DNA of 64,000 bases from Sanderia malayensis (lineage: Eukaryota > Cnidaria > Scyphozoa > Semaeostomeae > Pelagiidae): the NCBI GenBank assembly GCA_013076295.1, contig RQOL01000824.1:2914001-2978000 (forward strand). Reading direction: 5' to 3'. Made by a program: the position numbers and the translations under genes. The first letter of the stretch is position 1; each line of letters starts with the position of its first letter. Positions 38,240-62,200 of the stretch are shown here, piece by piece. Under the pieces are notes generated by a model, which made no database searches, was not told where the DNA came from, and saw only the letters and a program-made list of their open reading frames with translations.

Positions 38240-41047
38240 ATGTCATTGTGGGTGCCACTTTATTTTGCTGTGTCATTTCTGTCCACGGTTGCCAATGCAA
38301 CAACGGTACAAGTTGCTGTACCAGGTGAGAAAATTTAAATCTAATTACTTCTTTCTTCTGAATTGTTTTCTTCTCACATTGCTAGTTAATGCAAATTGCT
38401 TTCAATATTGTTATTAGTGTTAAGGTTCCAACCTCTGTAAAACCAATGTGTGTATTTAGGCCCAGGTTAAGGGTCGTTTTTGTCATGCATGCACCGAACC
38501 TGATATGGCAAAGATCGGCAATAGCGAGACTCTAGCGCCACTCACGCTCTTATTGCACGCTCGCGCCAAGGATTGGGGCACTGACTGTGGCATGGTATAA
38601 CGACGAAATGTATTTCATGAGCTATTTATCGAGCTATGCCAAACGCGATGCTTAACGAACCTAGATTATACTTTGATCTTTCACTTTTACCATTTACACT
38701 TTGAAGTTTGCCTCCGTCCAATGATGTCAAATACCGTTGCGATTCCAAAGCATTTGCTATAGCTATAGCTACATTAAAAGGCTCTAGTTGTGGTGATGGT
38801 ATTGCAATTGATGTAGCCAAGTTTAACGTGGTGATAAAATGACGTTTTGTTACAGGTGATTTCGCTTACTTCGAGAGCCCGTCCGGTAACAAACGTTTAT
38901 GTATGCATAAGAGGCCAAATACGATTAAGTTTTCTTACGAATGTTGTGGAAATGACAATGTTATGAAGTACTCGCTTACCAATAAGCAGCTTTTTCACAC
39001 CCCGTCGTCTGGCAACAAGAAATGTGTCAATTATGCCGTAGACGGTCAGCCCCTGAAGGGTAAGTTGATTTAAAACCTTTATTTTTGAAGAAAAATAATT
39101 TATTTGTTTTGTACGTAGCTGTAGGCCTGTGGGACGAAGATTTGGGGGGGGCTGAAGTTTCAATTTTATAGATTATAGTGGAGTTCATCCCCTCTGCTAC
39201 GGTAGGGTTACTGGATCTTTATTTTTTGTTTTTTTCTTTTTATTATTTTTTTATTATTTTTTTTTTACTTAATCTTTATTCTTTGTTTTTTTTTTATTCT
39301 TTTTTTTACTTGAGTTTCTATTCTTTTTTATCTTTTGGCAAGGATAATAATGGCTCTATTCTCTCTGCCAGAAGAAGAGGGCGTATTTCAGTCGGCTCGT
39401 ATTTCAGTCGGCGTTTGCTTCCAATGTTCAATTGCAGCGCTTAAGACTCTTCCATTTACATGTTGTTGCATTTTGTAGTGAAAAACTCAGGGTCATGTGT
39501 TGCGTTTACTATGATGGATGGACAACTTCAACGAACTTTGTCATCCGGAGTACAACAATATTGTCTTTTTGGTAATTCCATCCATGACAGTGATGTCTAC
39601 ATGAGACCATGCTCAAATGGTTTTCAGTTCACCTTCCATTCAAACGGTAAGGCCCTTTTTCAATGAGATTCCAATACAACAAATACTCTTTCAACGATGC
39701 TACCGTATTTCCTCGATTAAACGCCCCCTCGATTAAAAGCCCCCTCGAATAAACGCCCCCTTATGCTATCAACTCTTGAAATAAACGCCCCCCACAGAAC
39801 AATTTTTTCAAGTTGGTGTAGTGTATTGTTGCTTTGCTCGATAAAGGCAAGGCACAACTAAACCATTTTCTCTTTTCTGGACCCAATGAGAGGCTGTGGT
39901 CTTGTACTTTCTAATAAACGCCCCCCCCCGAATAATGGCCCCCTCGATTAGGCACCCCCCCCCCAAAAAAATTGCCGAGATTAATAAACGACCGGGACGT
40001 TTAATCGAGGAAATACGGTATCTTTTCTTGCTGCGATGCTACATATCCTTTAGATTCAGTACTACAAATCTAACCATCACAAGACATATTCAGTATATCT
40101 CATTTCACTGCACATTTGTCATATATTTTAATGTGATTATGTGTCTACTTTAATGTCTCTTTTCAATGCTTTAAATTTGCTTGATTTATAAATTTGCGTG
40201 CATGTAATGTCTGTATTCTACCACTGAATGTATTGAAGCGCAATTATTCTTGTTTCAAGGTAAATGCCCACCAGAAAGGAGCAATTGCTTACGGGATGAT
40301 TTCTTATTATCTCTTGAATATCTGTTTTTGATTAATAGGTTGCTTGTCTATTTTATACATTTTACCTGGGAACTCTTCTTCAGGTTCGCATTGGCTTTTT
40401 TCCTGCTTCTGTTGTAATGGCTTCGCTTCTTTTTATTTTCTTGCATTGGCTTCTTTCCTGCATCTAATCTTTGTGCGCTTGCATTTTTCTTGCTTTTTTA
40501 TCTGTGTTGCTTTCTTTTTTTATTCTTTATTCTCATGGCTTCTTCCCTTTTTCTTTATATTGATTGGTTCATTCACCTTTTTCTTCATCTACAAAGGCTT
40601 CTTTTCTCGATCTTCGTTCCCACATTGGCTTCCTTCCTGATTTTCTGCCTTTGCATTGAATTCGTTTTTTGTTTATTTTTCAGTCGTGAAGCAATTCAGC
40701 ATGAAAAAACCATCTGGTTCGAAGTACCTTGGATTGAACTCAAATTCACCGTTCCTACAAATGACGACCAACAAATTCACGTTTAAACTCTACTCTAATA
40801 AACAGATATGGGTTCACGGTAAAGATTCTTGCTTGGCTCCAGAGAGATGGAAGCCCGATCAAAAAATCATGTTGAAACCATGTATGTATATCTTGCAATA
40901 TGTAGTGCTGTGATACAGTATAATCGTGTGTGTAGAGAGAATCGTCTGCAAATAGAGAATTTGGGAAAATAAAACATGCAAAAACTCTTAAACCCTTGGT
41001 CTGGACTCCAAGCCAGAGTCCTTGGAAAGTTCCAGAAACTCTCTCAT

Positions 41048-41084
<37 letters not shown>

Positions 41085-44000
41085 AGAGCTTCACACGGTG
41101 CTCTCTTGTACTGGCAGCCTATTTCCAGGCAGTGGTGCAGATTTAACGGAATAATTCGGGTGACTGTTCCATTATAATGATTGAAACAATATCAAAATGT
41201 GAAATCATGCACTTTTTCTGATGACTAGAGGAGCCGAGCTTCCCTTTCATTCCTGAGCTCTACACCACTGTCTCCGGGACAGACTGTACTATGAAGCATT
41301 CAAAGGACCAACCCATCATGTCAGGAATTTCTAGATTCTTGTTTTCTGCATATACTCAATATTGACCCTTGCTCGATCTCTTGCAAATCTATCGATTATA
41401 CATAGAGAAAAGTTGGTATATCTCTTAGTCACCATTAGTTGCTTCTCAAATTTTAATTTTTACTGAGCCATGCTAAAAACTCGTGTTATTCCCTCTGATA
41501 GGCATTTACGCATTGAAATCACTTTTACCCTTCAAAAACTACTTTCAATAGCCTCGTTCGCACTCTATAGTGAACGTCCTCGTTTGCACTCTACTTTTCA
41601 GGAGCCTCGTTCGCACTCTAGTTTATTATATATTATTATATATACATGATCTCTATGTGGGAGCCAGCTTCATGCGTTGCGTCATAATGTTGAAAAACTA
41701 AAGTTTGTTTCAAATGACCGTGTTATCGTGTGCTCCTTTGGCAAGAATTTATGCTCTCCATATCTCGGTGTCCCCATCCGTTCCAAACTTTGAGATACCA
41801 GAGATACTTTTCACGTCCCTGGCCATTTTTGACTAGAATGTTTTCATGTTTCCTTCTATTCGAATTAACTTGATTTAGTTGTGTCTTCTTTCCAGCTTGC
41901 CCTGGTGCGATGTTCAAATACCGAGCAGACAAAGGAACATATGAATTATTATATACTGGTTTGTGTATCAGAAATGAAAACCCTCCAATGTTGAGGTTGT
42001 GCGAAGACACTTCTAATCCACAATTTGTTGAAAGTAAGTACCAGGTTCATCGGCGTATCCCCCTGTTTTACTTATGACAAACCAGTGATGTTTAATGCAA
42101 TTTCTTGTTGTAACCGGGTGCTTTTGGTTCACAATGTGCTATATGCAAGTGATTAACTGTGCCAGCTTTTTTATTGCGTTCTTTCGTTGCATTCTTCTTG
42201 TTTACACATTCTTTCTGATCAGCCATTCCGTCTTTTGCAGCTGTCACAAACCTGAGCCTTGCTACTTCTATGACTGTTAACAGCGTGATTTCATCACGAC
42301 CTGTGTTGACAATTGCATCTTCGCGACCTGCGTTAACATCGACGAAAGCGATTGTACAAGGACCTGCGTTAACATCAACGAAAACGATTGAACAACAACC
42401 TGTGTTGACATCAACGAAAGCGATTGTACAAGAACCTGCGTTAACATCGACGAAAGCGATTGAACAAGAACCTGCGTTAACATCGACGAAAGCGATTGAA
42501 CAAGGACCTGTGTTAACATCGACGAAAGCGACTGTACAAGAACCTGCGTTAACATCGACGAAAGCGACTGTGCAAGAACCTGCGTTAACATCGACGAAAG
42601 CGACTGTACAAGAACCTGCGTTAACATCGACGAAAGCGACTGTACAAAAACCTGCGTTAACATCGACGAAAGCGACTGTACAAGAACCTGCGTTAACATC
42701 GACGAAAGCGATTGTACAAGAACCTGCGTTAACATCGACGAAAGCGATTGAACAAGGACCTGTATTGACATCAACGACAACGATTGCATCTTCGCGACAT
42801 CCGTCGAAACCAAAATCTCACGAAACAACGTCTTCCTCACTTCCATTGACGGTGTCATCATCGTCTCACGCAATGACGTCACAGCAACTTCATACGCCGA
42901 CGTCATCACCAATTTCATTGCTGCCCTACTTTTCGCTTGCGTCACAGGCATTGACACCACTGAACTCTAAGCAACGTGTGACGTGGGACTCTGGGTCACA
43001 GGCCATCTTGTTACACAGCACGATCAAGCCAACCCTTGTTGTTGATTCCGACAGTAATGCTGCAACAGTCACCAGATCTACTGCCATTTGGCAGCGTGGT
43101 AAGTAAATTCGTCTTGAAACTGTAAAAAATTTCAAGGAATCTTGAAGCTCGCAATGAATGCTTCAATGAATTTTGAGGCATACATTGAAAGCTTCAGAAG
43201 GTATTGTTTCAACTAACGGCTGTGTGTACACTAAGCAAAGCAGTCTAATTTTGTGTTGTTTTGATGATTGTTATCTTTTCTTTCGCTGCAGATAGTTTTG
43301 GCCCCTGGTTCCCTTGGAAGCCGTGTCCCGTTTCATGCGGAGGAGGAAGGCAAACACGCAAAAGGAGGTGTGAAGGAGACTTTTGCCTCGCTTCCATGCT
43401 TGAAGAAGAGCAAGTGTGCAACAAAGATCCCTGCCCAGGTATGCATTTTGTCACTGCGTCAATTCCGCTTTGTGAAATCACATGCTTTCCAGTTAATGAA
43501 CAAAGTTGTATTATATATCATATTAATGGAGGCCAACCATTTCTATCTTCTTAGTTAATGGTGGTTTCTCGAGTTGGGGTGCGTGGTCTTGCAATGCTAC
43601 ATGTGGAGGAGGGGTAAGAACTAGAAAGAGGCTGTGCAACAACCCTCGTCCTGATCACGGAGGCGTGGATTGCTTTGGAGTAAGAAACAACGTCGATATA
43701 TGTGCATCCGATTTCTGCCCGGGTTTGTAGATATGCAACTTTTAAGCTTAGCTCGACTCAATTCTGGTATGATATGCTTATTTTTTGTTTTATTATTCTC
43801 TTTTTTTTGCTTTATTATTCTCTCTTTTTTCTCTGTTATTATTCTCTTCTTTTTTTATTTTTTTCTCTTTTTTGTTTTATTATTCTCTTCTTTTTTTATT
43901 TTTTTTATTCTCTTTTTGCTTTATTGTTCTCTTTTTCCTTGTCTCTTCCTCGAAATGCATTAGTCACAGCTCTTAGATAGTCTACTCTAATCTGGCATAG

Positions 44001-47000
44001 TTTACTCTGCTATGATATATTCCACTTCTTTGATCTGATGTAGTTTACTGTGATCTGATTTCATCCACTCTGATGTGACGTTGTCTACTCTGATTTTATA
44101 TAGTTCATTCTGCTGTGATGTATTCACTTGATCTGATGTAGTCTACATTAGTTCGACTCTAACCTTGTGTGGTCTACTTTGTTCTGTCATAATTTTGCTT
44201 TGTTCTAATTTGACATAGTTTACGTTGCTCTGAAATATTTGACTCTGATCTGGTGTAGTCTACTCTGCTCTGATATTATCCACTCTGCTTTAATATTGCA
44301 AGTTGCAATATTTATCATAAAGTATACGATGCTAGTCTCCGATGTTTCATGAGAAGTCGGCTACCTAAAATGTACCGTTGAGAGATTCATATCTTGCATA
44401 GATATATTGATTTATTGTGCACGTCATTTCCTTGATAGTTCACGGTGGTTGGACAGAGTGGACAGCATGGTCGGCCTGTGATAAACCTTGTAATACTGGC
44501 ATGTACAGGAGATGGCGTTATTGTACAAACCCATCTCCACTTTATAATGGCAATGAATGCCAGGGGAATGCAACCGAAGGCATGCCATGCAATACCAATA
44601 TATGTCCAGGTAAGACTGCCTTGCTTTGTGTTTACTCTACGCTGTTTTGTTATCTGTTCTATGTTGCTCTATGTACTCTGTTGTTTTCTGCTTTGTGTTG
44701 CTTATTTTGTTGTCATCTGCTCTACGCTGTTCTACGCTGCTCTACTCTGTTGCGGTCTGCTGTATATTGATCTACTCTGTTGTTTCTGCTGTACGCTGCT
44801 CTAATCTGTTGTGATTTGTCTATGTTGATCTACTCTATTGCTATCTGCTCTACGCTGCTCTACTCTGTTGTTATCTGCTTTATGTTGCTAAGGTAAGACT
44901 GCTTCGCTTTGTTCCGAGTACCTTTCCTCTCTGTTGATCTTATCTGCCTGCCTCCGAGTGCCATTTTATCTCACCGTCTGAGCTTTGATTCATTTCAGAA
45001 TCGAGAGTGAATCTTTGGAATATTCGTTTTGATCTGGAGTGGCGTGGGAACTTGACAGTCAGAGCCTCCGATGCCTTCAACGTCTTTTCGAACACATTGT
45101 CTTTGAACGTGAGCTCTTTTTTTACTCTCATTCTATCGCCTTTGGGGTCTAATCCTATGTTACATTGGCTTATGATTGTTGGTCTTATGTAGTTGCATTG
45201 TGTTTTCAGATCAGACGAATGTTCGAATATTCGGCTAGTAATTCAAGTTACCTGTTTTGCTACATTCATAACCTAAAGTGAGTGTTTTAAAGTAGTTTCA
45301 AGTAATTTCAAGCAATTTAAAGTACTCAAGACGTACCTCAAATTTACCCCACCCATTATTAGCTAGTACTTTCTTTGGTCCCTGATTTTAAACTCCTGAT
45401 AACGAGCATGGAGACGGGGTGGTAGCTTGTGAATCATTAGGGAGTTGCAAATTACGAATCATAGATCAAAGGATCTATGATCTTGACCTGTGATATCAAA
45501 GTCACGATTTTCACTTTTGACTTTTGATCTCCAGCTCCTGATCCATGCTCTGCAACATTTAATCCATGACCTATAACCTCTGCTGTCAACTCTTTTTATC
45601 AACAGAAAAGGTAGTGTGGCCGCAAACTTCACGCTGTATTTCTCTGCACTGGACTCCTTTCAAATTCTTCTATTGCAAGATTCAGTTGAAACAGACAAGT
45701 ATATTGGCAAGATCAAACTATTGAAATCAGATTCGTTTTATAACGTTTCATTGGGTATGCTTTGAGATTTTTTATCTGTCTTTCTTATTTTTATCTCCAT
45801 TTACTCTAATCTGCTGCAAGTTTCTATTTTTATGTTGTTCTACTTTGCTCTGAATTGTTTTATTGGGCTCTACCTCGTCCCTGGTTTTTCCACTATTCTC
45901 TAAGGTGTTCTGTTTTCCTCTTAAGCCTCCCTTCTATGTTTGAGCTAGTTCTTGCGAGTTTGGAGGTGCTCTACCCTTTTTCTCTGCAATTACAATCCTC
46001 AAACGTGTGTGACTGATTTCTCTTACAGTACCAGCATCTGCCCCACTGAACTTCACTCTGACAGCACTGTCAACAACTTCGATCAAGGCAGAATGGGGAG
46101 AAGTTCCCAAAGATCAACAAAATGGAAATGTAACTGGATACATTTTGTTTTACCGGGAGCTCACTGCTGCGTCCTTCAAAAGTTTTGCGACTGTAAAATT
46201 GAATGCAATTGTTCTTGGATTATCTGTCTTCACAGAGTACGTGTTCAGAATTCTCTCCTACAATCGAAACGGCAATGGATTAGCCAGTGAATCAATGAGT
46301 GTGCGCACCTTTGGCTCAGGTAGGTCTTGAATTTTCTTCCTTTTTATTTATAGCTTTCTCTCTTTTCTTCATATACCCCCTTAAGAAGAATGAGTCTCAT
46401 TCCCAAAGCAGATTAGCATACTGCGCCAGCCTTGGGATTGACGTTATTTTGAAAAAACATGGACACATCCAAACAATATCAAAATTTATTTTAAATCCAT
46501 TGTACTGTATGACCTCTTTATAGAGGATACTAAACTAAAGATTGTTTTTGTCCTTATACCGTACACTGATATGACAAGGAATAGAGTGACTAATGTGTTA
46601 ATTGTAAACAAGGCTGCAGTTGAATCCTGACGTTGGAAGCTTCCCGAAATGCGAAGAACACAGCGTTTCATCCCTTGACCTTTTTGTAGTACAATTTACC
46701 TTTTTGGAGCTCCCCATATAACTATTTAAGCTCCCCATATAACTATTTAAGCTTCCCGTATAAAGAACGGATCACTTTGTCTCTTGACTTGTTTCATAGT
46801 ACAATTTATATTTTCCCTTGGTGTAAGGAGCTCTGTATTCATAACCAAACAGCCAAGGAATCCCTGCATTTTTTTATAACGAAGTTTCATTTCATTTTTA
46901 TTTATAGCTCCACGCCATCCACCGAAGTCACTGTCTGCAGTTTCCACGTCCGGTTTTGAAATCTCGGTTGATTGGGTAAGCATCGGTCAAGATGATTGGA

Positions 47001-50000
47001 ATGGCATTCCTCTGGCATCCATTGTCTGGTATGGACATGATACCAGTCGGCTACAGGCTCAAAGCAAAACTGTCCCCTTCCCGGGCAATTTCGTCCTACT
47101 CCAAGGGCTGCTTCCAGTCACCACATACGTCATTGATGTATGCCATGTTACTAAGCACGGCCAAGGACCTTGTCAAAGAACACAGTGTACAACATTAGCA
47201 AGTGGTATGTTTTTATCCTGGTGTTTGTCTTCAATTTTACACTGCGTAAATCTATAATGCCTTGTATAGTAGCCCCTAATGGACTTGCGGTCAAGAGTAT
47301 GTATTTTGCAGCTCTTTGAGTCCAAGCTTTGCGTCATCTAGAGTCTATGCCTTGCAAACTGTTAGGTCTATTTTTTCGCAGCTTTTTATGCGATGTTTTA
47401 TTTGGACTTTCGGTGGCTGGCGATTTCATTATCTACCCATTCTTTATTGTTAAACTAATTACTGAAGTGTTCAAAGGCATATCTATTGACAAAGCCTTCT
47501 TCTCACTAGAATGAATTTTATTTTACCATTCCAGTGCCTTCGAGGGCTCCGAGTAATGTTCGAGTCCACAGCAAGATCGACTACAAAAGCATTGATGTTA
47601 CGTGGACACCAATTTCAATGGATTACGTGCATGGCGATCTTAAAGGATACAAAGTTGTTTATAAGCTTGTGAAAGCTGCAGAAACTGACGTCATTGCATC
47701 TTCGGTCGTCACCAGGCTTGTTCACCCGTCTCTCGCTAGAGTCACGTTACCCAATCTGCAGCCGAATGCGAAATATGCAATTCGAGTGCTGGCTGTCAAC
47801 GAGCATGGAGACGGGGTGTCGTCAAGCAAATTTTACGGTGGTATGAAAGGCGCTAAATTCTATGCCCTTCGTTCTTGTTAAAATTAGTTGTTGACCAATT
47901 CATTTTTGTAGTTTTTGACTCTTTCAGTTCTCTAATCATTGACCAGTTCGTTCTAGAATTGCAGACTTTCTTGGTAGCGAATTTCATAGATATCTACTAA
48001 CATGCATCAGGATATGTATGATATTTCAGTGCGCTATCTTTCAGAGACCTGTTCCTGCCCACCGATAATCTACACCAACTATGCAGCAAGTGCACCCTAC
48101 ATTTACAGAGACGAGGCTGGAAATATGAAAGGTCTGTTCGCTGACATGCTCCAAAACCTAACCTCGTACGCATGCGGAGACTGCAAGAGCAGGACATCAG
48201 TCCTCGATTTCGTGTCGAATGGCAAGAATGGCTGGGCAGAAAAGAAGTCTCTGACAGAAATGAAGAAAGATATTGATGAATACGTGCATTTGAGTTTCCC
48301 AATATTTGGCAGCACTGTTTTGGACACGTATAATGGCTTTGCATTTGTGCCTGTGTTTCCACACCCCGGCGTTGTCTATTTCATCATCAAAGACCCATAC
48401 ATCAAGCAAGTACAACGTGTGGGTCTCAATCTTCTTAACACCTGGCCAATTTTCCTTATCAACATTCTCCTCATTACAATATCTGGTTTCGTCATGTGGG
48501 CTCTGGTAAGTTGGTCATGTATCATTTAATCTTTCCGACAATTCTTTTTGGCTCATCCAGCTTTGCCTTTTGGCTCATGCAACCTTTGCCTCTTAGCTCT
48601 CCCAGCCTCTGTCTTTTGGCTATTTCAGCCTTTGCCTCTTGGCTCATCCAGCTTTTTTCCTTTTGGCTCCCCGGCACAATGCCTCTTGGTTCTTCCAGCC
48701 TTTGCCTCTTGGCTCATACAGCTTTTTTCCTTTTGGCTCCCCGGCACAATGCCTCTTGGTTCTTCCAGCCTTTGCCTCTTGGCTCATTCAGCCTTTGCCT
48801 CTTGGTTCTTCCAGCCTTTGTCTCTTGGCTCGTCCATCCTCTGCCTCTTGGCTATTCCAGCTTTTTCCCTTTGGCTCCTCGGCACAATGCCTCTTGATTT
48901 CTCCAGTCTTTGCCTCGTGACTCTCTCAGTCTATTCCTTTCCTGACTCGGTGCCCCGTACCTTCTCAACTATAGCGGTTGTAAACCTCCTGGTGATGTCT
49001 TTGTTTGCAATTATTTACCAATAAATGTTTAAACTTTTCAGGGGGGTGCAGAATGTGATATAATATTGTTTTGATTTAGGAATCGAATTTCAACGATGAG
49101 TTTCCTCGCAGTTTCTTTCCTGGTGTCCTAAGTGGAATGTATTGGGCTTACATAACCATGGGAACTCACGGGTTGGTATTTTTATTTCTTTAGCTTGCTC
49201 GTGTATGTTTACATAGATATTGGAATCAATAGAATTTCCTTGTATTGCTAGTTAAACATTTAAACCAACTTCAAAATGCAGCTCGAGTTTGTTTTCGAGA
49301 ATTCCTGATTTAGCGAAGTTGCTGATTTTCTTTAACTTCCATGCTGAAATTTTATTGTGTCGTCATATTTTTGTTGTTTATTTGTTTAGTGTCATGTTGT
49401 TTACCATTATCCGCTTGTTTATTCCAGGTACGGAGATAAGACACCCACCAGCTTTGCGGGACGATCCTTTGCGATGATCTGGATGCTTGTTGGCATGGTG
49501 AATTTGGCAATTTTCACTGGTGCCTTGACGTCTGCTTTCACATCCACGCAAGTTTACGATAGCCACACGATTTACGGGGCTGAGGTACCGAGCTCTCTCT
49601 CCCACCCTTTCATTGAGCCTCCTTAATTGCCTTCAATGGTAAAATCAATGGTTACATTGCAGATTAGCTCCCCATTTTACACTATACGCTCATGTATTCT
49701 AACACTCTTTCTTTTGTATAGATTGCTGCTATTAACGATACAGTTGCGTTCAATGTTGGTGTTCAGAGAAATGCCAAAGTAAACAAAAGTAAGCACATGC
49801 AGTTTTACTAAAACTTTTTACTACGGTAAAAACCCGCATATAAGAACCTGTAAATTTCCATCCAGGCTATTGTTCCAAGACAATAGGCTATTGTTTCTTC
49901 TATTGTTTTGAATATAAATATCATCCTGAAGGCTCTTAATCCATTGGTTCTTATATGCAGGTTTTTACTGTATCATACCCTGACAACAAACCAGGCGCTG

Positions 50001-51822
50001 GAAAATTAGCGATTGATCAAGCAGCAGGCATATGATCTGAAATATTCACCAAGCAATCGAATGCTTTGATCTTCTCAACTTTATTTGAAATCCAAGTTTT
50101 GTTTTCAGAGCAAAAGTACACATCCATTGAAGAGGTGGCCGCCGCACTGAAGCGAAGAGATGTGAGAGGAGCATTGGTTGATGTTTATTCAGCGGCTACG
50201 AGAAATGATCTGTTTGAAGATCCTAACATCGTAGCAAAGAAACTTGTGAAATATCCGAGTGCATTTGGGTTCGTTTTGTCTGGTGATATGAACAACGTGG
50301 CTCCAAAATTCAGAGACTACCTCAAGCTTCATGCCAATGAGCTGCTTGAAAATATGAAAAACAAAACCGAAAACTTTGTGGTGAGATTTTTAAATTATTT
50401 TTTTCAATGATTGTTGAACAGATAAAATTCATGAAAATTAGCTGGGTAGTTTGTCCACTGTTGATCAAACAAACAAGAGGTTTTCTTGGTTGTAGAAATA
50501 ATGAGTAAACAATCATTTATTATCATTATTATTATTAGTTTAACCGACATTTTTGTACCTTCTGTGTTACTTTAGCTATTGTTATTGTATTGATATTGGA
50601 ACTGGTATGAGTATTAATATTAGTGTTAGTATTGGTATTGATAGTGAGGTATTGGTATTAATGTTAGTATTAGTATCGGTACTGGTATTGATATTGATAC
50701 TAGTAATGATATAACGTAAATCCTCGAATAAGCCCCCGGGGGCTTATTTGCAAAAACGAAATTTTAGCTGGATTATTATTCAATATTAAGCAAAATAAGA
50801 GCTATACCATGCAGCCAATCAATAGAGTTATTGGTTTAAACTTGCTGTTATTTGCAATACATTCATTAAACAACTTCAATGTCTGGAAGCTTGGGCCCAA
50901 TATCCTTGCAAATGACTATCAGGATGGGGGCTTATGGGGAGGGCTTATTCGGAAATAGGGGCTTATTCGAGGATTTACGGTACTGCTTTTGGTACTGTTA
51001 TTTGTGTTCCCATTTGTATTTGTCTAATAAATAGATAAGTAAATAAATATCAACTTGTTTTGTTTCGTTTAGGTTGGCGAGCCGTCAAAAGAACCCAAGC
51101 CTTTGTTTCATGAAGAATCTCCATTCTTCAAATATACTGTAATTGCATTCGCAATTCTTTTTGTTCTGTCTGCAATATGTGGAGTGACTTGTGACATTCG
51201 AAGACGTTACAAGGCAAAGCGCGTCACTGAGTCAGCAAGTAAGTTCACTAAAGCGCCCCCTCGACAAATCATATTTGAAATAATCTCCCTTTCAGCTAAA
51301 CGGCCTTCTTTCAATTCAAGTACCAAGTTGAAATGGTATTTTTCTACATAAGATGGTATGATATTTTGATGCAAGATTATTTGACATTGTGTGGCTAAGA
51401 ACTTTAAGCACAGGATAGCCAACCCCCTTAAGAGGGCTGGAATTAATAAGCGCCCTGGGGCGTCTGATAGAGGATTTGCTGTACTTTCTTTCATGTTTTT
51501 TCTTTGCGTTTCCACAGATGATGAAGCTTTGGACGAAATCGAAGCCGCTTGCCAGGATAGTCTGTTGAGATTTTATGAATCAACAAATTCATCACTGGGT
51601 AAGTTGTTCGACTCCCATTTACGCGCAAGAGTTGATTTTCTGCGCAGAAATACCTCAAGGCCAAGGCAGCGCCGATTTGTTAAGCTTTTCAATCGCGTTG
51701 CGTGGCAGCAAAGGGAGCGAGTTAGCCAATCACAAGTCCAGCCTGTGTGTGACGATGATAACTGCGCAGAGGTTGATCGGCCTCGCAGCGCTCTCGCTAC
51801 GGCAGCAGGAATGGCGGATTGA
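38240..51822 (+). CDS. TSP1-SEA-FN3 receptor with iGluR-like domain and K+-channel filter, copy 1
   Basis: Single-gene receptor-channel, 1625 aa, 22 exons: 38240-38324, 38856-39059, 39479-39646, 40684-40881, 41896-42033, 42241-43098, 43292-43438, 43555-43722, 44439-44609, 44999-45108, 45210-45277, 45606-45754, 46029-46319, 46908-47204, 47535-47840, 48045-48505, 49080-49171, 49428-49584, 49722-49788, 50109-50380, 51073-51238, 51518-51822. The signal peptide is LWVPLYFAVSFLSTVANA. Unfamiliar Cys modules follow (to ~264), then a Thr-rich linker (265-550), three TSP1 (550-712), SEA (713-821) and three FN3 (822-1119). The first lobe (APYIYRDEAGNMKGLFADML) leads to M1, pore THGYGDKTP, M3 with ALTSAFTS, the second lobe (ALVDVYSAATRNDLFEDP), M4 (~1490-1510) and a ~110-aa Arg-rich tail. 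Binding-protein fold and iGluR topology are read from order and motifs. Ligand and K+ selectivity are inferred. Glutamate may not be the ligand. Confidence 0.85.
39701..40020. mobile_element. MITE, TACCGTATTTCCTCGATTAA family
   Basis: Inverted termini TACCGTATTTCCTCGATTAA and TTAATCGAGGAAATACGGTA are exact over 20 bp. Subterminal AAACGCCCCC repeats lie inside both ends. 320 bp, no ORF, in intron 3 of channel copy 1. Confidence 0.85.
41046..41084. repeat. CA/TA microsatellite
   Basis: About 14 CA units followed by TA units, in intron 4 of channel copy 1. Confidence 0.85.
42325..42780 (+). repeat. Coding 36-bp minisatellite (12-aa Thr-rich repeat)
   Basis: About 12 in-frame copies of a 36-bp unit encoding TSTKATVQEPAL and variants (AIVQ, AIEQ, GP/QP/KP). 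It sits inside exon 6 of channel copy 1, where it forms a mucin-like stalk between the N-terminal modules and TSP1. Several adjacent units are identical at the DNA level, so the array is young and probably length-variable between individuals. The minus strand is also open across the array, which is a by-product of its period. Confidence 0.9.
48540..48930. repeat. Intronic minisatellite, CTCTTGGCTC-CAGCCTTTGC
   Basis: Tandem units of about 23 bp such as GCCTCTTGGCTCATCCAGCC. A larger block of about 94 bp, which includes TTTTGGCTCCCCGGCACAAT, recurs two to three times. It is intron sequence between the first-lobe exon and the pore exon of channel copy 1, although long ORFs run through it. Confidence 0.85.
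49080..49584 (+). other. Pore segment of channel copy 1 with THGYGD filter
   Basis: Exons 49080-49171 and 49428-49584. Translation gives GMYWAYITMGTH, then the first Gly of the filter split across the intron (GG|G), then YGDKTPTS and a long hydrophobic M3 (SFAMIWMLVGMVNLAIFTGA). The K+-channel consensus is T-V-G-Y-G-D; here Val is His. In iGluRs this place is a re-entrant loop with Q/N/G at the apex and no GYGD. The ALTSAFTS end of M3 sits where iGluRs have SYTANLAAF. Confidence 0.85.
49822..49972. mobile_element. MITE, TACAGTA-AACCCGCAT family, complete copy
   Basis: Termini TACGGTAAAAACCCGCATAT and ATATGCAGGTTTTTACTGTA are inverted repeats. The core has ACAATAGGCTATTGTTTCTT. Intron 19 of channel copy 1. 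Confidence 0.75.
50713..50982. mobile_element. MITE related to the TACCGTATTTCCTCGATTAA family
   Basis: The left end ACGTAAATCCTCGAATAAGC and the right end GCTTATTCGAGGATTTACGG are inverted. The interior, with AACTTGCTGTTATTTGCAAT, is shared with 30862-31275. Intron 20 of channel copy 1. Confidence 0.75.
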
Positions 51823-53213: not shown

Positions 53214-56200
53214 ATGGTAAGTTGCCTGTTTTGTTTTTTTCAATTTTACTCGTAAATGTTTCCATTTTGTCTCATAATTCACTTCATATTAACACCTAAT
53301 TTGCCAAGAAAGAAAAACAAGACTAGAACATGCTTACCCTCGATGACAGAGTATAAAGGACATTGGTAACTTATTTTGATAAAATATCTAATGATGCCAA
53401 CTCTTTGGATGAAAAAAGTTAGGAAACCATTATACTAATCACCCTCAAACTTGAAAAGAAAGCTGCAAAAATAGATCAGTCAAAACATTGTACAATTAAT
53501 ATTGTGTGGGAAACTTTTCTTAACAAGCTCTTGGGGTGGTATTGAAATTATTCTTTTAGACGATTATGTGGGTTATTTCTATCCAAAAGGCAGCTCTTTA
53601 GCAGTTTGATATTTGGAAATAAATATCCTTAAAAGTTAAGCACATCTGTTTTAGCTTAAATCTGCAAAATTAACAACGTTTAAAAGCTCACTCGAAATTC
53701 GATGTTATGGTAAAAAGCAGGTATATTATTTGGCTCACTTTTGTTCACCCAGTTCATAAATTGGGAAGTTCACCCACTTCGACTTAAGCTAACCCGGTTT
53801 ACTTTAATTCAGATAATTAACGAAGTTTTCTTTTCAATAGACATCAACAAGCGGTATGCTATATTCATGCATAGTTAATATTTTGTTTATGCTATTTAAT
53901 GTCAATGGACTTTGGCTTGAGGCCAAACGTCATAAAGCAATGCCACAGTGAATAATGAATGCAGACAGTACTAGAACCAGAATACAAAATTTGTAATGTT
54001 CAAATTGCTTTCATGGCAACCAGCGAATAGCAACTGGTTTTATTCTGTTCTTAATTGACAGCGGGCGTCGCCGGACGGTTACGCGGTTTCAATAGATCAA
54101 TAACATATTATTATTCTTTGATTCCGATTTTTCCATTTACCACCCGTGCCATGGCTGCATGATGAAGTTTCCTTTTCGTAAACAAACGTCACGATGCATG
54201 GTTTTATCAAAACATTTTCACCTCTGAAGATTGCAATATGTAATCGATAAAATTATGAACACGATTCATTATTTTCAATTGAACTTAATTTTTGAAATTG
54301 TATTCTCAATTATATCATTTGTTATGTGAGCTTTGTTTCATTTTCCGATGCTTGCAATTTTTTAAGTGAAACTGCGGGCGCAAATTGTGTCATGTGAGTT
54401 ACAGCATAAAAGCATTTTATACTTCAAAATAAATTTTTTCTCATGCTTTCAACTTTGTGTGATTAGAACATCCTGGAAGAGGAGGGGGTCATTGCCATAA
54501 ATGGGGGTTGTACAGTCGACTCTAATTCGAGCACCCTGGGGAAGGGTGAAAATGTTCGAATTACAAAAAGTTCGAATTTAGAGGTTTGTTTTATAAGAAT
54601 TGGTTCATTAGTGATCCTTGAAGGGACGGTGAAGTTCGTTCGAATTAGATAGAGTTCGAAATACACGAGCTCGAACTATGCAGATTTGACTGTATCAAGT
54701 TTGGCTTTTGGTTCGAACTAACGCCTTAAAAGGAGCTGAGAATTGCTTCGGATTATTGAGAAATTTTATTCCAAATATTCGTGTTCTTTTTCAGGTTTTC
54801 TTCCCGGCCATTTTGCTGCTGGCTCAAGTCATTGTACCACAACAAGTATATGGTAAATATATAGCTACAATCGTTTTTAATTCAGCGCCTGCTCTGACAT
54901 TGAAGCTTCGATACGCGCTCTTTTCGATTTCACTCCAGTAACCTGGCAACCAGACCCTCTTAACGACTTTTCTTTTAAGAGGGTCTGGTTCCCAGTGTAG
55001 CATCATAGGGGTCTCGAGATAATAAGTCTACGTTGGTGAAGTTATTACACTTCGACGGTTAGTTTTGAATCAACCAATACAAATACTCCAATTGTTCGTA
55101 TTTCAACATTTTGACGGATAGCCAACAATCAAGTGATTTGAAAATGATATGGAAATATTCTTCAAAGTTCTAGGAACATTTTTGCGTAATTAGTTCTTCT
55201 GTGCCCTGAGGAAAAGACCACTGCAAACGTGAATATAATTGACTTGAAACAGTTAGGCTCTTATCTCGGTTGTCTCATGTTGTCTTGCACTCACTTATCC
55301 TCATATGGTTCCCCTGGATTGTGCATTTTATTCACCCTAGGCTCTGAAAATCATGACTTTTATTACGACTAAATACCATGTTTATGTAAATCAATAATTG
55401 CGCTTGCAATCGTCATCACAAATTGTTTTGCTATTTTCCCCAGGTTACCCTTACATTGAGTATGGACAGGGAGCCCAAAGAGGTAGAGTTTGTTTGCAAG
55501 GGAAGGTGGAAACTGGCTATGTCAATCTGACAACAATCGTCGCCGACTGTTGCTCAGCAATTCCAGTGAGGTTTGAAAATAATTCGCTTCACCAAGGAAC
55601 TGACTGTTTCTGGCTGGATGAGACCACCTCCATGCTTTTAAGACGTCCTGCAAACGGTATGCATAGTCAGGCAAATCTATGTATCATTGTAGATAAATGC
55701 TTTTTAAAAAAGGTATCATGTGGTGTTTATGTTATGTACAGTGTACATGAACAAGTTCCCTGTGCCTGGCTCGTATGTTAATATACTGGTTAAATAGTTC
55801 GTCATGATTGGTTTGATTATTTGTGTTCTTTTGTTCAAGAAAATTGCACTAAATTCGAATTTATTAATGGAAAGATGATGTTGCGGAATAATCCAGGAGG
55901 GGGGCAAAAATTATTTCTCGGAGATGTTGACAATGGTTTACGCCTTACCGATTCGCCACCCATCAATGAAACATGGAACTTGAATGGTAAGCCATCAATA
56001 ACCTTGGTTCCCTGTGTTTTCAGTTGCATTCCGTTACGTTGCATTCAGTTTGTCACTGCATCACCTCTGATCACGTGTTATTGTTGTTTTAAGGAGCGTG
56101 TCCTTCACCTAAATCAAATTCTACCGGTGAGTAGGATAATCTTTTTAATTGGTAATGATGATAATTAAAAGTAATAATGATGATGATATCATAAATAATT

Positions 56201-59200
56201 GGTAATGTTTGTATGACAAGTCATTTTTATAAGAAAACCCGGTTTGTCAAAGACCAGAATTAGGGTTGGACAAAAATTTGATTCACCTATTTGATTCGGC
56301 GCATGAGAACAGCGATGTTTAACTTTAGGTCCAAGAAACTTTAGTACTAGGTCGAAGAACAATTAAAAACTGTAAAATTTGTCATCTTAAAAAGGAGTCC
56401 AGAGACATTAATTTGTGCACGACATAGTCATTGTGACTATGAAGGATTTTTCTAGCTTTTCTTTGTAAAAAGTTTTAATTTGTGATTTTGATCTGCGCGG
56501 GCTATTTTTGTGACGATCTTGTTTTGTGTCCATCCAAAAATAATCAACTTCAAAACAATAAGGTAATTTTAGATCACAAAGATAAGAAACCAATAAAGAC
56601 ACTTTTTTAGTACCAAGTGCTGATCTTCAAAGTTCTTATCAACTAAAAAATAAAAACATGTACTGTACCAGATCGTCTTTACATACGCCATCTATCAATA
56701 ACTATTTTTGCTATATTGCTAACAACATGGTACTTGCCTTTGCTATTAAATTTTAAAACTAATATCATCATTGATACTACTGTAGCAGTTAATGCTGACA
56801 GTGAATAATTTTGGAATTCTGATATGAGGAAACTTAAGTGGAATCAAAAATTCTATCTGGGTAAATTAATGCTCGAAAAAGGAACAGTTCAAGGAGCTTT
56901 GTTTTATTATGTGTCCTCTTACATTAAGACTTAACTTCATTGTCAATTAAAGACGTTATAGAAGAGTTCTTACCATCTGCATTTATTTTTCTTTTCAGTT
57001 GTGGCATCCAAGGTTTATATTGGTGAAAATGGGAAATACATTCGCGTGGATTCCTCTAACAATCCGACGGCTTTAAACCAGGCTTCAAATATAGCAGAGT
57101 TTTACTCAAATGGTGAAATTTGGTTTGGATCTCTTTGCATGACCTTGGAAGGTGAATTTCCAAGGAGGTTGGGTGACTTAAAAATCAAAAAGTTCAGATT
57201 TGAATCAGGTAATTCGGCAAAAATACATCTGATAAACAAATGTATAAGTTTTATATCCCATGCAACGAACAGCTATGGTTTTCACGGTACTTCAGTTTTT
57301 ACCAGCAACCGTCAACGACCCTTGACGCCTATATGATGACCAGACCAGGCTTTAAAATGAAATCAGGAATATCGAATTTAAGTGCAGCTTTTGCAAGAGT
57401 CGTTGCTGTTACATTTTCACCATATAGTTGTCATTCTTTGTGGAATATTAAGCAAGCTTTGTTTATCTTTATTCACCCATAATGTCTAGATCTATACATT
57501 CCTATTTTTAGATTGCCGTGGAGTTAGGTTTGTCCACAGGCCTTCGACATTCACCTATGAACTTTTAAATACTGCTTATTGCATCATGCGATCGGGTAAT
57601 GCTTTTCAATTACTGGAATGCGGAGGAGGTATGACAAACATTTGGTTTCATACTTTGCTTAGTTGTATATTGCTCCATTTGTTTTTCATTCTCATATGCT
57701 GCTTCGTTCTTTATTTGTAATGCTTTTTCCTTCTTTCTTTGAACTTAGCTGCAACGCCCCACACTACCTCAACTCTTGGAACTTCCAGCACAGCTAGCAT
57801 CACAGCTTCGACCGGTATTTGTAGCTCCATTATTTATTTATTTATTAATTCTTTATATGTCGCTCTATTTTTTTTCATTCTCATATGCTGCTTCATTCTT
57901 TATTTGTAATGCTTTTTCCTTCTTTCTTTGAACTTAGCTGCAACGCCCCACACTACCTCAACTCTTGGAACTTCCAGCACAGCTAGCATCACAGCTTCGA
58001 CCGGTATTTGTAGCTCCATTATTTATTTATTTATTAATTCTTTATACGTCGCTCTATTTTTTTTCATTCTCATATGCTGCTTCATTCTTTATTTGAAATG
58101 CTTTTCCTCCTTTCTTTGAACTTAGTTGCAACGCCCCACACTACGTCAACTCTTGGAACTTCATAGTCGGGTCTTAAAGTCCCGCTAATTTCATTGAAAC
58201 GTTTTTTGTTAACTTATCTTCATTTTTCTTAGTTCCGTCGCTAACTTCCATTTATCCAACCCCGAGTACGACACCATCACCCACTGCAACACCCACGTCG
58301 AAACGTAAGTTCACTTGCATTTACTGTAAAGGAAGGAATCTGGCTACAGAAAACTTTCCGTTGGAGAAGGGCGTCCGCGTCTTAATTCGAGAGAGGTGTA
58401 TTGTATTATTGTATTATTTTGTAGCCTCGGTTGGATGCACTGGAGCTTGTTTGCGGCTTGCATCACCAGGACAACAATGCGGAGACTTTTGCAAGAGCCT
58501 GGGTAAGAGATTGTCATACCTTACTTTTGAATTTGCTTTGTTAATACAGCTGAATCTCGATATATGGATGTTTATCAATATATGAAATTTGAAGGAACAA
58601 ATATGTTGATTAGGAGGTAAATTAGGAGCTCGTTAACTTTACAGTAAATTGTGAAGCAGCTTTGGGAACCCAGTATTTAAATTGGCACACTGAGAAGTTA
58701 CCCATAAGGGTAAATTGTGAATGTTAATTCGAGATTTCACTTTGCAAATTTCGCTCAATTTTAGGCCTGTTTTGCTCGAGCTCAATTGAGACTGGAAACT
58801 CGGTTTCTGCATTCACGAGTTCTGGTGTCGTTTGCAATGACACAACATCAAGTATGCAGTGGAAAATGTCATATGACCCAGCATTTCTCCTGCGCAATTC
58901 CGCCTGCACGGGTTACATGAATGTCAATCAAACTGTTCATTGCACTGTCCAAGGCTTCGCTGACGCCAACGTCAGGAGGCTATGCAAATGTGTGACGTCG
59001 GGTGAGTTTTATTACTAGTAAAATTACTTTCTCGTTTATTGCCTGGACCTGCACCTAGCGCCTAGTGTCCCGAATCGTATTGAGTACTTCGTTATTTAGG
59101 AGGTCTCTAATTTGATTTGCCACTATAATTTTGCCCGTCCGATTTTAGCCGAAGAAGATAGTTTCAATAACTGGGTGCCATGGTCGGCTTGTATTGTCTC

Positions 59201-62200
59201 CTGTGGAGGAGGAACCCAGCTCAGAACCAGAACATGCAAAATGGATTCCTGTACAGGAGATTACTCTGAACAGATTTCGTGCAATGAGCAGCCCTGTCCA
59301 AGTATGTCAACCTCAAATATTTGTTATCGTTTCCCCCTGTTATTTCACTGGCTTTCGTTCGTTTGTTCGGAGCCTTCTCACGATTTCCTTCTGTTTAGCA
59401 AAACTCCGGTACGAGATCTAAAGACATCATTGAATTACTTTGCTTACTGGAAGTATGCTTTTACAGCGGAAGTCCAGGGGGCTGTCCGATAAAACTATTT
59501 ACATTCTATGCCACGTTGTTTACAGTTGATGGCGGCTTCTCGAGCTGGACTGTGTGGAGCAGCTGCAGTGTTACCTGCGGAGGAGGGACGAGAAGTCGAA
59601 CAAGGGACTGTAATAACCCGTCTCCATTGAACGGGGGTTTGAACTGTTTTGGATTAACGGAAGTTTCTGAAATTTGCGGCTCGTCATTTTGTCCAGGTAA
59701 GTTACAAGTTGTGCTTCCTTTAACTTTCACTTATGACTTACAATTACGGTTATTCATAGATAGGGGCCCGCGGCGTGTATCACGTTAACATGGAGGGCGG
59801 TTATTAGAGCGGCGAAGATGGAAGTTTGTTTTAAGCGTTATGATATTGTTCCACGTCATTTCCTTGATAGTTCACGGTGGTTGGACAGAGTGGACAGCAT
59901 GGTCGGCCTGTGATAAACCTTGTAATACTGGCATGTTCAGGAGATGGCGTTATTGTACAAACCCATCTCCCCTGTATAATGGCAATGAATGCCAGGGGAA
60001 TGCAACCGAAGGCATGCCATGCAATACCAATATATGTCCAGGTAGGACTGATTTGCTTTGTGTTTACTCTACGCTCTTTTGTTATCTGTTCTATGTTGCT
60101 CTATGTACTCTGTTGTTTTTGCTTTTTGTTGCTTTATTTTGTTGTTATCTGTTCTATGTTGCTCTACTCTACTCTTCTACTCTGTTGCTATCTGTCCTGT
60201 GTTGTTATATTTAGCTGTCATCTGATCTATTTTGCTAATCTCCTCCAGTGTGTTTGTGTTCATCTTTCCTCTTGTTGCTCCAGCCTTTTTACGTCACGTT
60301 TCTCTTTTTTCAAACCACGTTTCAATTGCTCTGTGCATTGCGTTGTGCTCACTTCTGCATGCCATTTGTTACTTGTTTTCCAGCTGAGAGCATTGCCGTG
60401 GCCAACCTTCGTTTGAGGGCTGATTGGGCTGCAGATATGAGCAACCATGGATCACAGAATTTCACCAACTTCTACAGCCTTCTAACAACCAGCGTCAGTA
60501 TTTCTACTATGTTTAACTTGTATCTAATTCCACACTGTCAACACGTTGAATTGATTCTGACAATCTGTATCATTTTTATTTCTAGGTTCGCAGTATTTAC
60601 GATTTCTCAAATTTAAATTCAACTTATCATTTCCTGATAGTAGAAAGTCTGAAGTAAGTTAATTCGAGAAATCGTTCACTTCAAAGTCTCGCAAATAGGA
60701 AACAATCATCTTTTTCAAAGCTATTGTACTATAAACAATGGGCTATTGTATAATCTATTGTTTTCTGTATTGTATCCATCAAATGTTTCTCATGAGATGT
60801 CTTATGTAATACAGTAGAAAACCCTCAAAGATCCCCCAAAGATAGGTAGATGCTGCGAAGTAGCATGTAAATTACCCGTGCGCAGGCTTACTCAGCAAAG
60901 TATGTGGGTGATATATCGAATTGCTACATTCTTACTGTACCTCTACTTGATTTGATTCTTAATTCTTTTTAGGCAAGGCAGTGTGATTGCGACTTTCACC
61001 CTGTTCTTTTCCTCTTTGGACTCCTTCCAAGTATTGTTGCTACAGGATTCGATAGAAAACGATAAATATCTCGGCAAACTCAAAATTACCGGCTTCAATA
61101 ATACCTACAACACGACAATAGGTTTGCTTATGTTTACACAGATCTTATTTCAATGTATCTGCTATTACAACTACATAAACCTTTGCAGTACAGTTCCCCA
61201 GGGGGGAGGGGGCACTCGTAAAAATTTGGGTAATTGGGACCCTTCTGGCTACGCCTCAATTGCAGCTAGAGTTTTTAGCTTGAACAAATGTCTTCTTGTT
61301 TTGTTTTTTAGATATGTCAGCATGTCGCAGGTTTAAGGTAATAATTTCATGCGATTTGTCATTTTTTTGCAGTACCAACATCTGCCCCACTGAACTTCAC
61401 TCTGACAGCACTGTCAACAACTTCGATCAAGGCAGAATGGGGAGAAGTTCCCAAAGATCAACAAAATGGAAATGTAACTGGATACATTTTGTTTTACCGG
61501 GAAAAAATGCTCATTTCTGCGTCATACAAAAGTTTGGCGACTGTCAAATTGGATGCAACTATTCTTGGATTATCTGTCTTCACGGAGTACGTGTTCAGAA
61601 TTTTATCCTACAATCGAAACGGCAATGGATTAGCCAGTACTGAAGAGACTATTCATACCAAAGAATCGAGTAAGTATTTGAGATACGTCATAGTAATGAT
61701 TATGAATATCTTAATCATAATTGCAATGACAATGATTACGGCGATACTAGTGGTGGTGTAGCCTTGTGGTTAGGGCGCTGGATTTCGTATCCGTGAAGTG
61801 TGACGTTCATGGGTTCGAGGGTGACGTTCATGGGTTCGAACCCATGTGCGATCGAAATCCAAAACTATAAGCCGTGACCAAACTCAGCTGTTCATCCCTC
61901 CGAAGCCTGTAGTAAATAAATACCCGGATGGGGTTAAGAAGTTTATACCAACTGGACCCACGTTGAAAACAGTTTTCTCACAATTGAACAGGCTACTCGG
62001 TATCCAGCATTCGTATTCGTGACTTATTTACTTACTCCGCAATAATAATATCATCTTTTTTGCAGCACCGAGTCAACCACCAACAGGATTGGCAGCCAAC
62101 GCCACCTCAGGTTTCTCAATCATAGTCTACTGGAAAAATATTGCGCAGCGCGCATGGAACGGCATACCGGTTGGCACAGTTGTCGAATATTCAGACAACA

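Follow-up and report, generated by a model that had tools for sequence, protein, structure and literature searches.

Glutamate receptors with a K+-channel signature have been described as rarities, and those named as carrying it in the relevant part of a 2025 review are GluR0 and AvGluR1 (PMC12332018). AvGluR1 is a receptor of the bdelloid rotifer Adineta vaga (Janovjak, 2011, as described in PMC12332018 and PMC12226733), and the part of a 2025 phylogeny that deals with it calls it "highly atypical" and describes its activation by glutamate and other amino acids (PMC12226733). The terms potassium and GYG have zero occurrences in the main text of PMC6307864. Among the titles and abstract openings matched in a literature search, whose coverage included few subscription journals, there was no paper on a family of glutamate-receptor-like channels with a K+ filter. 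In contrast to this described rarity, about two dozen loci of this kind occur in one animal genome, that of the jellyfish Sanderia malayensis, and adhesive modules are present at some of them. The order S1-M1-P-M3-S2-M4, found in the gene described here (gene 1), is also that of the ionotropic glutamate receptors of animals (NMDA, AKDF, epsilon), whose own traits are a non-selective pore, another kind of amino-terminal domain, the ligand arginine and the SYTANLAAF motif, which gene 1 resembles in part. Insect ionotropic receptors (IRs) are likewise glutamate-receptor-like and have often lost the ligand arginine, which is also missing in the family of gene 1, but are not known to have the K+ filter or a TSP1/SEA/FN3 ectodomain.

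The window, which is the whole stretch of 64,000 nucleotides that was analysed, contains gene 1 and the greater part of a tandem copy (gene 2). Exon-by-exon rebuilding of gene 1 gave 22 exons from the ATG at 38240 to the TGA at 51822, encoding 1625 amino acids, with 21 introns that are all GT-AG and agree in phase, and with no internal stop. The order of its parts is leader, faintly lectin-like region, mucin repeat, three TSP1, SEA-like domain, three FN3, S1-M1-P-M3-S2-M4 and tail. Gene 1 and its tandem copy are probably (at a probability of roughly 0.7) extracellularly gated K+ channels of glutamate-receptor topology that are tethered to the matrix or to neighbouring cells. The features of gene 1 are as follows.

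38240-38324, + strand: exon 1, with the ATG and the leader MSLWVPLYFAVSFLSTVANA..., a signal peptide as judged by eye
38856-42033, + strand: exons 2-5 (38856-39059, 39479-39646, 40684-40881, 41896-42033), Cys-containing and faintly ricin-lectin-like (Ricin_B_lectin, E 0.024, under the cut-off)
42241-43098, + strand: exon 6, a Thr/Ser-rich 12-residue tandem repeat found by eye, a mucin-like stalk
43292-44609, + strand: three TSP1 domains of one exon each (43292-43438, 43555-43722, 44439-44609; Pfam TSP_1, 5.8e-22, three stretches, over the cut-off)
44999-45754, + strand: SEA-like domain of three exons (44999-45108, 45210-45277, 45606-45754; Pfam SEA, 1.2e-4 for the piece alone, under the cut-off)
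46029-47840, + strand: three FN3 domains of one exon each (46029-46319, 46908-47204, 47535-47840; Pfam fn3, 1.2e-28, three stretches, over the cut-off)
48045-48505, + strand: S1 segment and M1, from the exon model, the GluN1 alignment and hydropathy; an alternative in-frame acceptor would place the start at 48030
49080-49171, + strand: pore helix with the filter's first half (...YWAYITMGTHG); the exon ends within a Gly codon in phase 2
49428-49584, + strand: second half of the filter (YGDKTP...) and the M3 inner helix (Ion_trans_2, 3.1e-11 for the channel part)
49722-50380, + strand: S2 segment, exons 49722-49788 and 50109-50380, from the exon model and the GluN1 alignment
51073-51238, + strand: M4 (hydropathy peak 2.48; aligned with the M4 region of GluN1), followed by the basic stretch RRRYKAKR
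51518-51822, + strand: tail and stop, followed by AATAAA

The three hydropathy peaks of gene 1 are M1, M3 and M4, with the caveat that one FN3 stretch also lies barely over the threshold (1.55); the leader is below the threshold of 1.5. In Pfam searches of the long protein, Ion_trans_2 is over its cut-off (1.7e-10), while Lig_chan barely misses the cut-off of 30.8 bits, with 29.3 bits for the long protein and 30.3 for the channel alone. An earlier note on this DNA had read one continuous exon chain from an adhesion-type ectodomain to a channel; the in-frame model of 22 exons and the tandem copy bear this out, and the borders 43292, 47840, 48045 and 51822 given there are exact, each being a splice border or the stop. 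The TSP1 and FN3 domains that it named are both well over their cut-offs in the Pfam HMM search, the K+-type filter is confirmed by Ion_trans_2 and by the residues THGYGD, and the glutamate-receptor-like order including M4 agrees with the three hydropathy peaks and with a family profile that is collinear with GluN1 (see below). The N-terminal part of gene 1 and the tandem copy are additions to that finding. In the region of exon 6 an antisense frame is also open for 241 amino acids (42092-42817), which is probably a by-product of the Thr/Ser repeat.

As for the SEA domain of the same note, a SEA-like match is present in both genes, but the Pfam cut-off is not reached: E is 0.0051 in the long protein and 1.2e-4 for the piece alone in gene 1, and 1.8e-5 for the piece alone in gene 2, the pieces scoring 22.6 and 25.3 bits against a cut-off of 26.4. 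The residues GSV are kept in both genes (KKGSVAANFTLYF, KQGSVIATFTLFF), and KGSVAANFTL at 45607-45636 resembles what we take to be the self-cleavage site of SEA domains. Because this motif is kept in both genes, the outer part of the protein may stay attached by non-covalent contacts and come off under force, which is the boldest step of the mechanism proposed below. Adhesion GPCRs and MUC1-type mucins (SEA/FN3/TSP1) also have a modular, possibly self-cleaving adhesive ectodomain; they end in seven transmembrane helices or a single one, whereas gene 1 ends in a channel.

Compared with AvGluR1 as described, gene 1 is alike in combining a eukaryotic glutamate-receptor architecture with the filter signature of K+ channels. 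AvGluR1 is activated by amino acids, whereas gene 1 is without the ligand arginine; in addition, gene 1 has a mucin/TSP1/SEA-like/FN3 ectodomain and many relatives, by which it differs from the published description of AvGluR1. Bacterial genomes were scanned with one pore-helix pattern, and 18 ORFs were extracted from at least 80 loci. The top-ranked bacterial locus among the matches listed (L060; E 5e-17 among the candidates) is a GluR0-type fusion of a binding protein and a K+ pore, in which the sequence around the TTVGYGD pore strongly matches SBP_bac_3 (7.4e-25). As a control, L060 finds Slr1257, presumably GluR0 itself, and AMPA receptors in the PDB; the other 17 ORFs look like ordinary K+ channels by eye. 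In both L060 and gene 1, the halves of a binding protein, or segments in their place, flank a K+-type pore, which in gene 1 is predicted to be inverted as in the GluR0 type. On the other hand, the GluR0 type has two transmembrane helices only and lacks M4, the tail and the adhesive ectodomain, all three of which are present in gene 1, and in the Pfam search gene 1 gave no SBP_bac_3 match.

Gene 2 was modelled with 25 exons from 54795 to a stop at the window-equivalent position 67383 (locus L009), which is past the end of the window; the initiating ATG was not located in the model. Its features within the window are as follows.

54795-59001, + strand: N-terminal exons, with a hydrophobic leader, Cys-containing exons, two repeated short Thr/Ser exons, and Cys-rich exons
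59149-63186, + strand: three TSP1 (TSP_1, 2.1e-27), SEA-like domain and three FN3 (by alignment to gene 1)
63787-64000, + strand: S1 exon, cut by the end of the window; the pore and the stop lie beyond, in L009

Gene 2 shares the domain order of gene 1 and its GTHGYGD, and the lectin match is absent from it in Pfam. DNA identity is 45-76% in 11 of the 15 paired exons, and synonymous sites are near saturation. Over the 719 diverged codons pN is 0.366 against a pS of 0.809; from M1 to M3 (109 codons) the values are 0.211 and 0.808, and the tail is weakly constrained (0.524 and 0.756). Four exon pairs are closer, namely the third TSP1 (44439-44609/59871-60041, identity 0.98), the first FN3 (46029-46319/61373-61669, 0.89), S1-M1 (48045-48505/63787-64247, 0.89) and S2 (50109-50380/L009:2520-2791, 0.93), and the flanking intron sequence is also alike by eye at the third TSP1 and S1 exons. 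These patches of 89-98% identity, which include both ligand-lobe exons, are likely to reflect recent gene conversion. In the first FN3 patch no constraint is shown, because pN (0.107) and pS (0.125) are similar. Two Thr/Ser exons of gene 2 (57749-57814 and 57938-58003) are identical over their 66 bases and have similar flanks. A single exon of gene 2 (L009:1874-2097, window-equivalent 64874-65097) corresponds to the two exons 49428-49584 and 49722-49788 of gene 1, and this difference after M3 is an intron loss or gain.

Gene 1 does not stand alone: it belongs to a family of predicted channels in this genome, with FN3 or EGF exons before S1 at some other loci. A Lig_chan search gave 31 places, which include receptors without the K+ filter, and seven loci fetched around these places contain an exon that starts with YGD and resembles the channel of gene 1. 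More YGD-type exons were found with Ion_trans_2 (122 places). Among 26 loci examined, including gene 1 and gene 2, the two halves of the filter are split by a phase-2 intron in the same Gly codon (G/YGD) in 24, a pattern that rules out a chance filter motif. The filter is TTVG/YGD in 22 of these 24 resolved cases and THG/YGD in gene 1 and gene 2. The two remaining loci were unresolved by the script: at L048 the first half of the filter was not found, and at L058 TTVG and YGD are visible by eye in a different donor context. The figure of 24 is not a number of distinct functional genes, as assembly duplicates are possible and near-identical tandem copies occur at C859 and C829; a direct protein search revealed further matching places beyond the 26 loci. 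Just before S1, fn3 was found in two of three pieces scanned at C478 (the third, a short piece, gave nothing) and as six stretches in five ORFs scanned at one C859 locus. FN3-like matches precede the filters at C809, at C815 and in the remaining C859 copies; an EGF domain stands before S1 at a C405 locus, and the C829 members appear to start with a leader and S1.

Two objections concern whether the parts belong together and whether they are of glutamate-receptor descent. It is scarcely credible that one gene, for an adhesion protein, stops near 47840 and that another, for the channel, starts at 48045: the last FN3 exon is separated from S1 by an intron of only 204 bp and of phase 1, the phases agree, no leader for S1 is seen in this intron by eye, the join is the same in the tandem copy, and FN3 exons also immediately precede S1 at C478 and at one of the C859 loci. 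Because the tandem copy keeps order, filter and frame, the join is not that of a misjoined model; separate adhesion and channel genes were rejected on the splice phases, the short intron and the tandem copy, and as far as the sequence can say, ectodomain and channel are one gene. As to descent, a profile of seven family channels (A2; S2 present in five of the seven rows, M4 in four) matches GluN1 (5un1; E 1.2e-10, i-Evalue 9e-10) in collinear order, starting at the end of S1 and continuing over M1, P, M3, S2 and M4, with a mean confidence of 0.71 for the alignment, and GluN1 is its best collinear PDB match. This collinearity supports an inverted, glutamate-receptor topology. The profile also matches the glutamate receptors of the same genome (probability 90, E 1.5e-6) over part of S1 through M1-P-M3, and the pores of Kv channels and of Lmo2059, which we take to be a K+ channel. 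It is quite unlikely that gene 1 is no kin of glutamate receptors and came to their topology by convergence, through the capture of a K+ pore between two unrelated segments outside the membrane. Such a capture would agree with lobes that are unrecognisable by sequence and with the fact that the strongest PDB match of A2, to Lmo2059 (2.2e-14), covers the pore region only; against it stand the collinear GluN1 match, which includes the M3 region, S2 and M4, and the fact that Lig_chan, like Ion_trans_2, matches every one of the seven A2 members with E no greater than 1 (best values 1.8e-11 and 3.6e-15, respectively). Landmarks of S1 (PPY, the G-hydrophobic helix start and a conserved Pro) also align with L060 and the receptors of the same genome in MAFFT, which always aligns something. 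The stretch aligned with the SYTANLAAF motif of M3, IFTGALTSAFT, is partially alike, and no amino-terminal domain of ANF_receptor type appears among the Pfam matches of gene 1 and gene 2 with E of 10 or less. An ordinary glutamate receptor of this genome was rejected as an identity for gene 1: in hhalign, the profile of those receptors matches the channel and gives nothing with the lobes alone.

The two remaining alternatives concern the ligand lobes and the filter. The two-lobe binding-protein domain of the earlier note was not borne out in the form given there: its support is the collinearity with GluN1, and when the pore is removed, the lobes have no significant match in Pfam or PDB, S2 alone giving a best match at E 0.35 and the first binding protein at 0.94. 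Against the lobes of L060, hhalign gave E 0.0017 at a probability of only 15, and a structure prediction for the S1 exon, a single contiguous exon, was a meaningless model (pLDDT 43). The arginine that holds the alpha-carboxylate of the ligand is present in four of four comparators, and its column is a gap in all seven aligned S1 segments of the family, a count that depends on the alignment; C478 and C405 have an Arg near this column and outside it. Because the lobes are undetectable without the pore and this arginine is missing in 7/7, gating by amino acids, the ligands that the earlier note had in mind, is doubtful. These same observations, together with the big adhesive ectodomain and its SEA-like domain, would fit lobes that are degenerate and bind nothing; the ectodomain, in place of a small ligand, would then set the open state of a K+ channel that is constitutive or gated by force. 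This is unlikely in view of the S2 residues G, L, D, Y and A, which are invariant in the four members aligned, the Asp matching that of the WDSAV stretch of GluN1; S1 and S2 are also highly alike between the tandem genes, a likeness for which gene conversion may account. In the PDB, the pore of gene 1 (YWAYITMGTHGYGDKTP) finds K+ channels (best 1.9e-7), and a T-x-G-Y-G filter is present with a pore helix and an inner helix. Where the remaining 22 resolved filters of the family have V and T, those of gene 1 and gene 2 have H and G, respectively. Histidine is unusual at this position of a K+ filter, and since, among the resolved filters, TMGTHGYGD occurs only in these two genes, their pore might be non-selective or modulated by pH, with the TTVGYGD relatives being the true K+ channels, a tentative alternative that we place on the unlikely side. 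The selectivity of K+ channels rests chiefly on backbone carbonyls, and THGYGD is kept in both genes despite near-saturated synonymous sites (pS 0.82 and 0.88 in the filter exons); K+ selectivity of the THGYGD pore, with its histidine in the filter, is likely.

From the helices, the filter and the domain order read in gene 1, we infer the topology, gating, selectivity and tethering of an extracellularly gated K+ channel as follows. S1 and S2 would form a diverged two-lobe clamshell, and four subunits an inverted pore like that of K+ channels. Because of the leader, the extracellular ectodomain and the three transmembrane helices, M1 is predicted to run inward and S2 to lie outside, with the pore loop dipping in from the cytoplasm; the leader (judged by eye), the three helices and the basic stretch after M4 best fit extracellular S1 and S2. 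Closure of the clamshell on an extracellular ligand, probably not a classical alpha-amino acid, would open the pore, and because the opened channel would let K+ out, excitation would be damped. The mucin/TSP1/SEA/FN3 part would take the place of the usual amino-terminal domain and fasten the channel to mucus, to the matrix or to a further cell, and its fusion to the channel suggests contact or mechanical control. In a further-reaching form, which is quite unlikely, a large receptor family of ligand-gated K+ channels would have arisen in an animal lineage on the plan of glutamate receptors, and some of its members would have been given adhesion ectodomains. In gene 1 and gene 2, pulling or shearing of a mucin/TSP1 head bound to the matrix would then control, by way of a self-cleaving SEA domain, a K+ conductance that inhibits, and the protein would be an inhibitory receptor that senses contact or flow. 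Should the channels work, two questions could be put to the test: whether the K+ pore of ancestral glutamate receptors was retained in animals or recovered later, and whether fast inhibition is mediated directly by ligand-gated K+ channels acting as receptors.

Some family members are arranged in clusters. In a tandem array at G000:C829:5227262-5263353, six filter exons of the family share one strand over a span of 36 kb, and at G000:C859:760847-795566 four copies with near-identical filter exons lie ~11.5 kb apart, with FN3-like matches before each. A search for GFP-family sequences gave no match, which by the tool's own statement does not show absence. The same genome also contains single-exon Lig_chan ORFs of 271-477 amino acids (L012-L019), whose S1 carries a long insert with Cys residues and whose M3 motif varies (YSANL, for example); these are another diverged receptor group.
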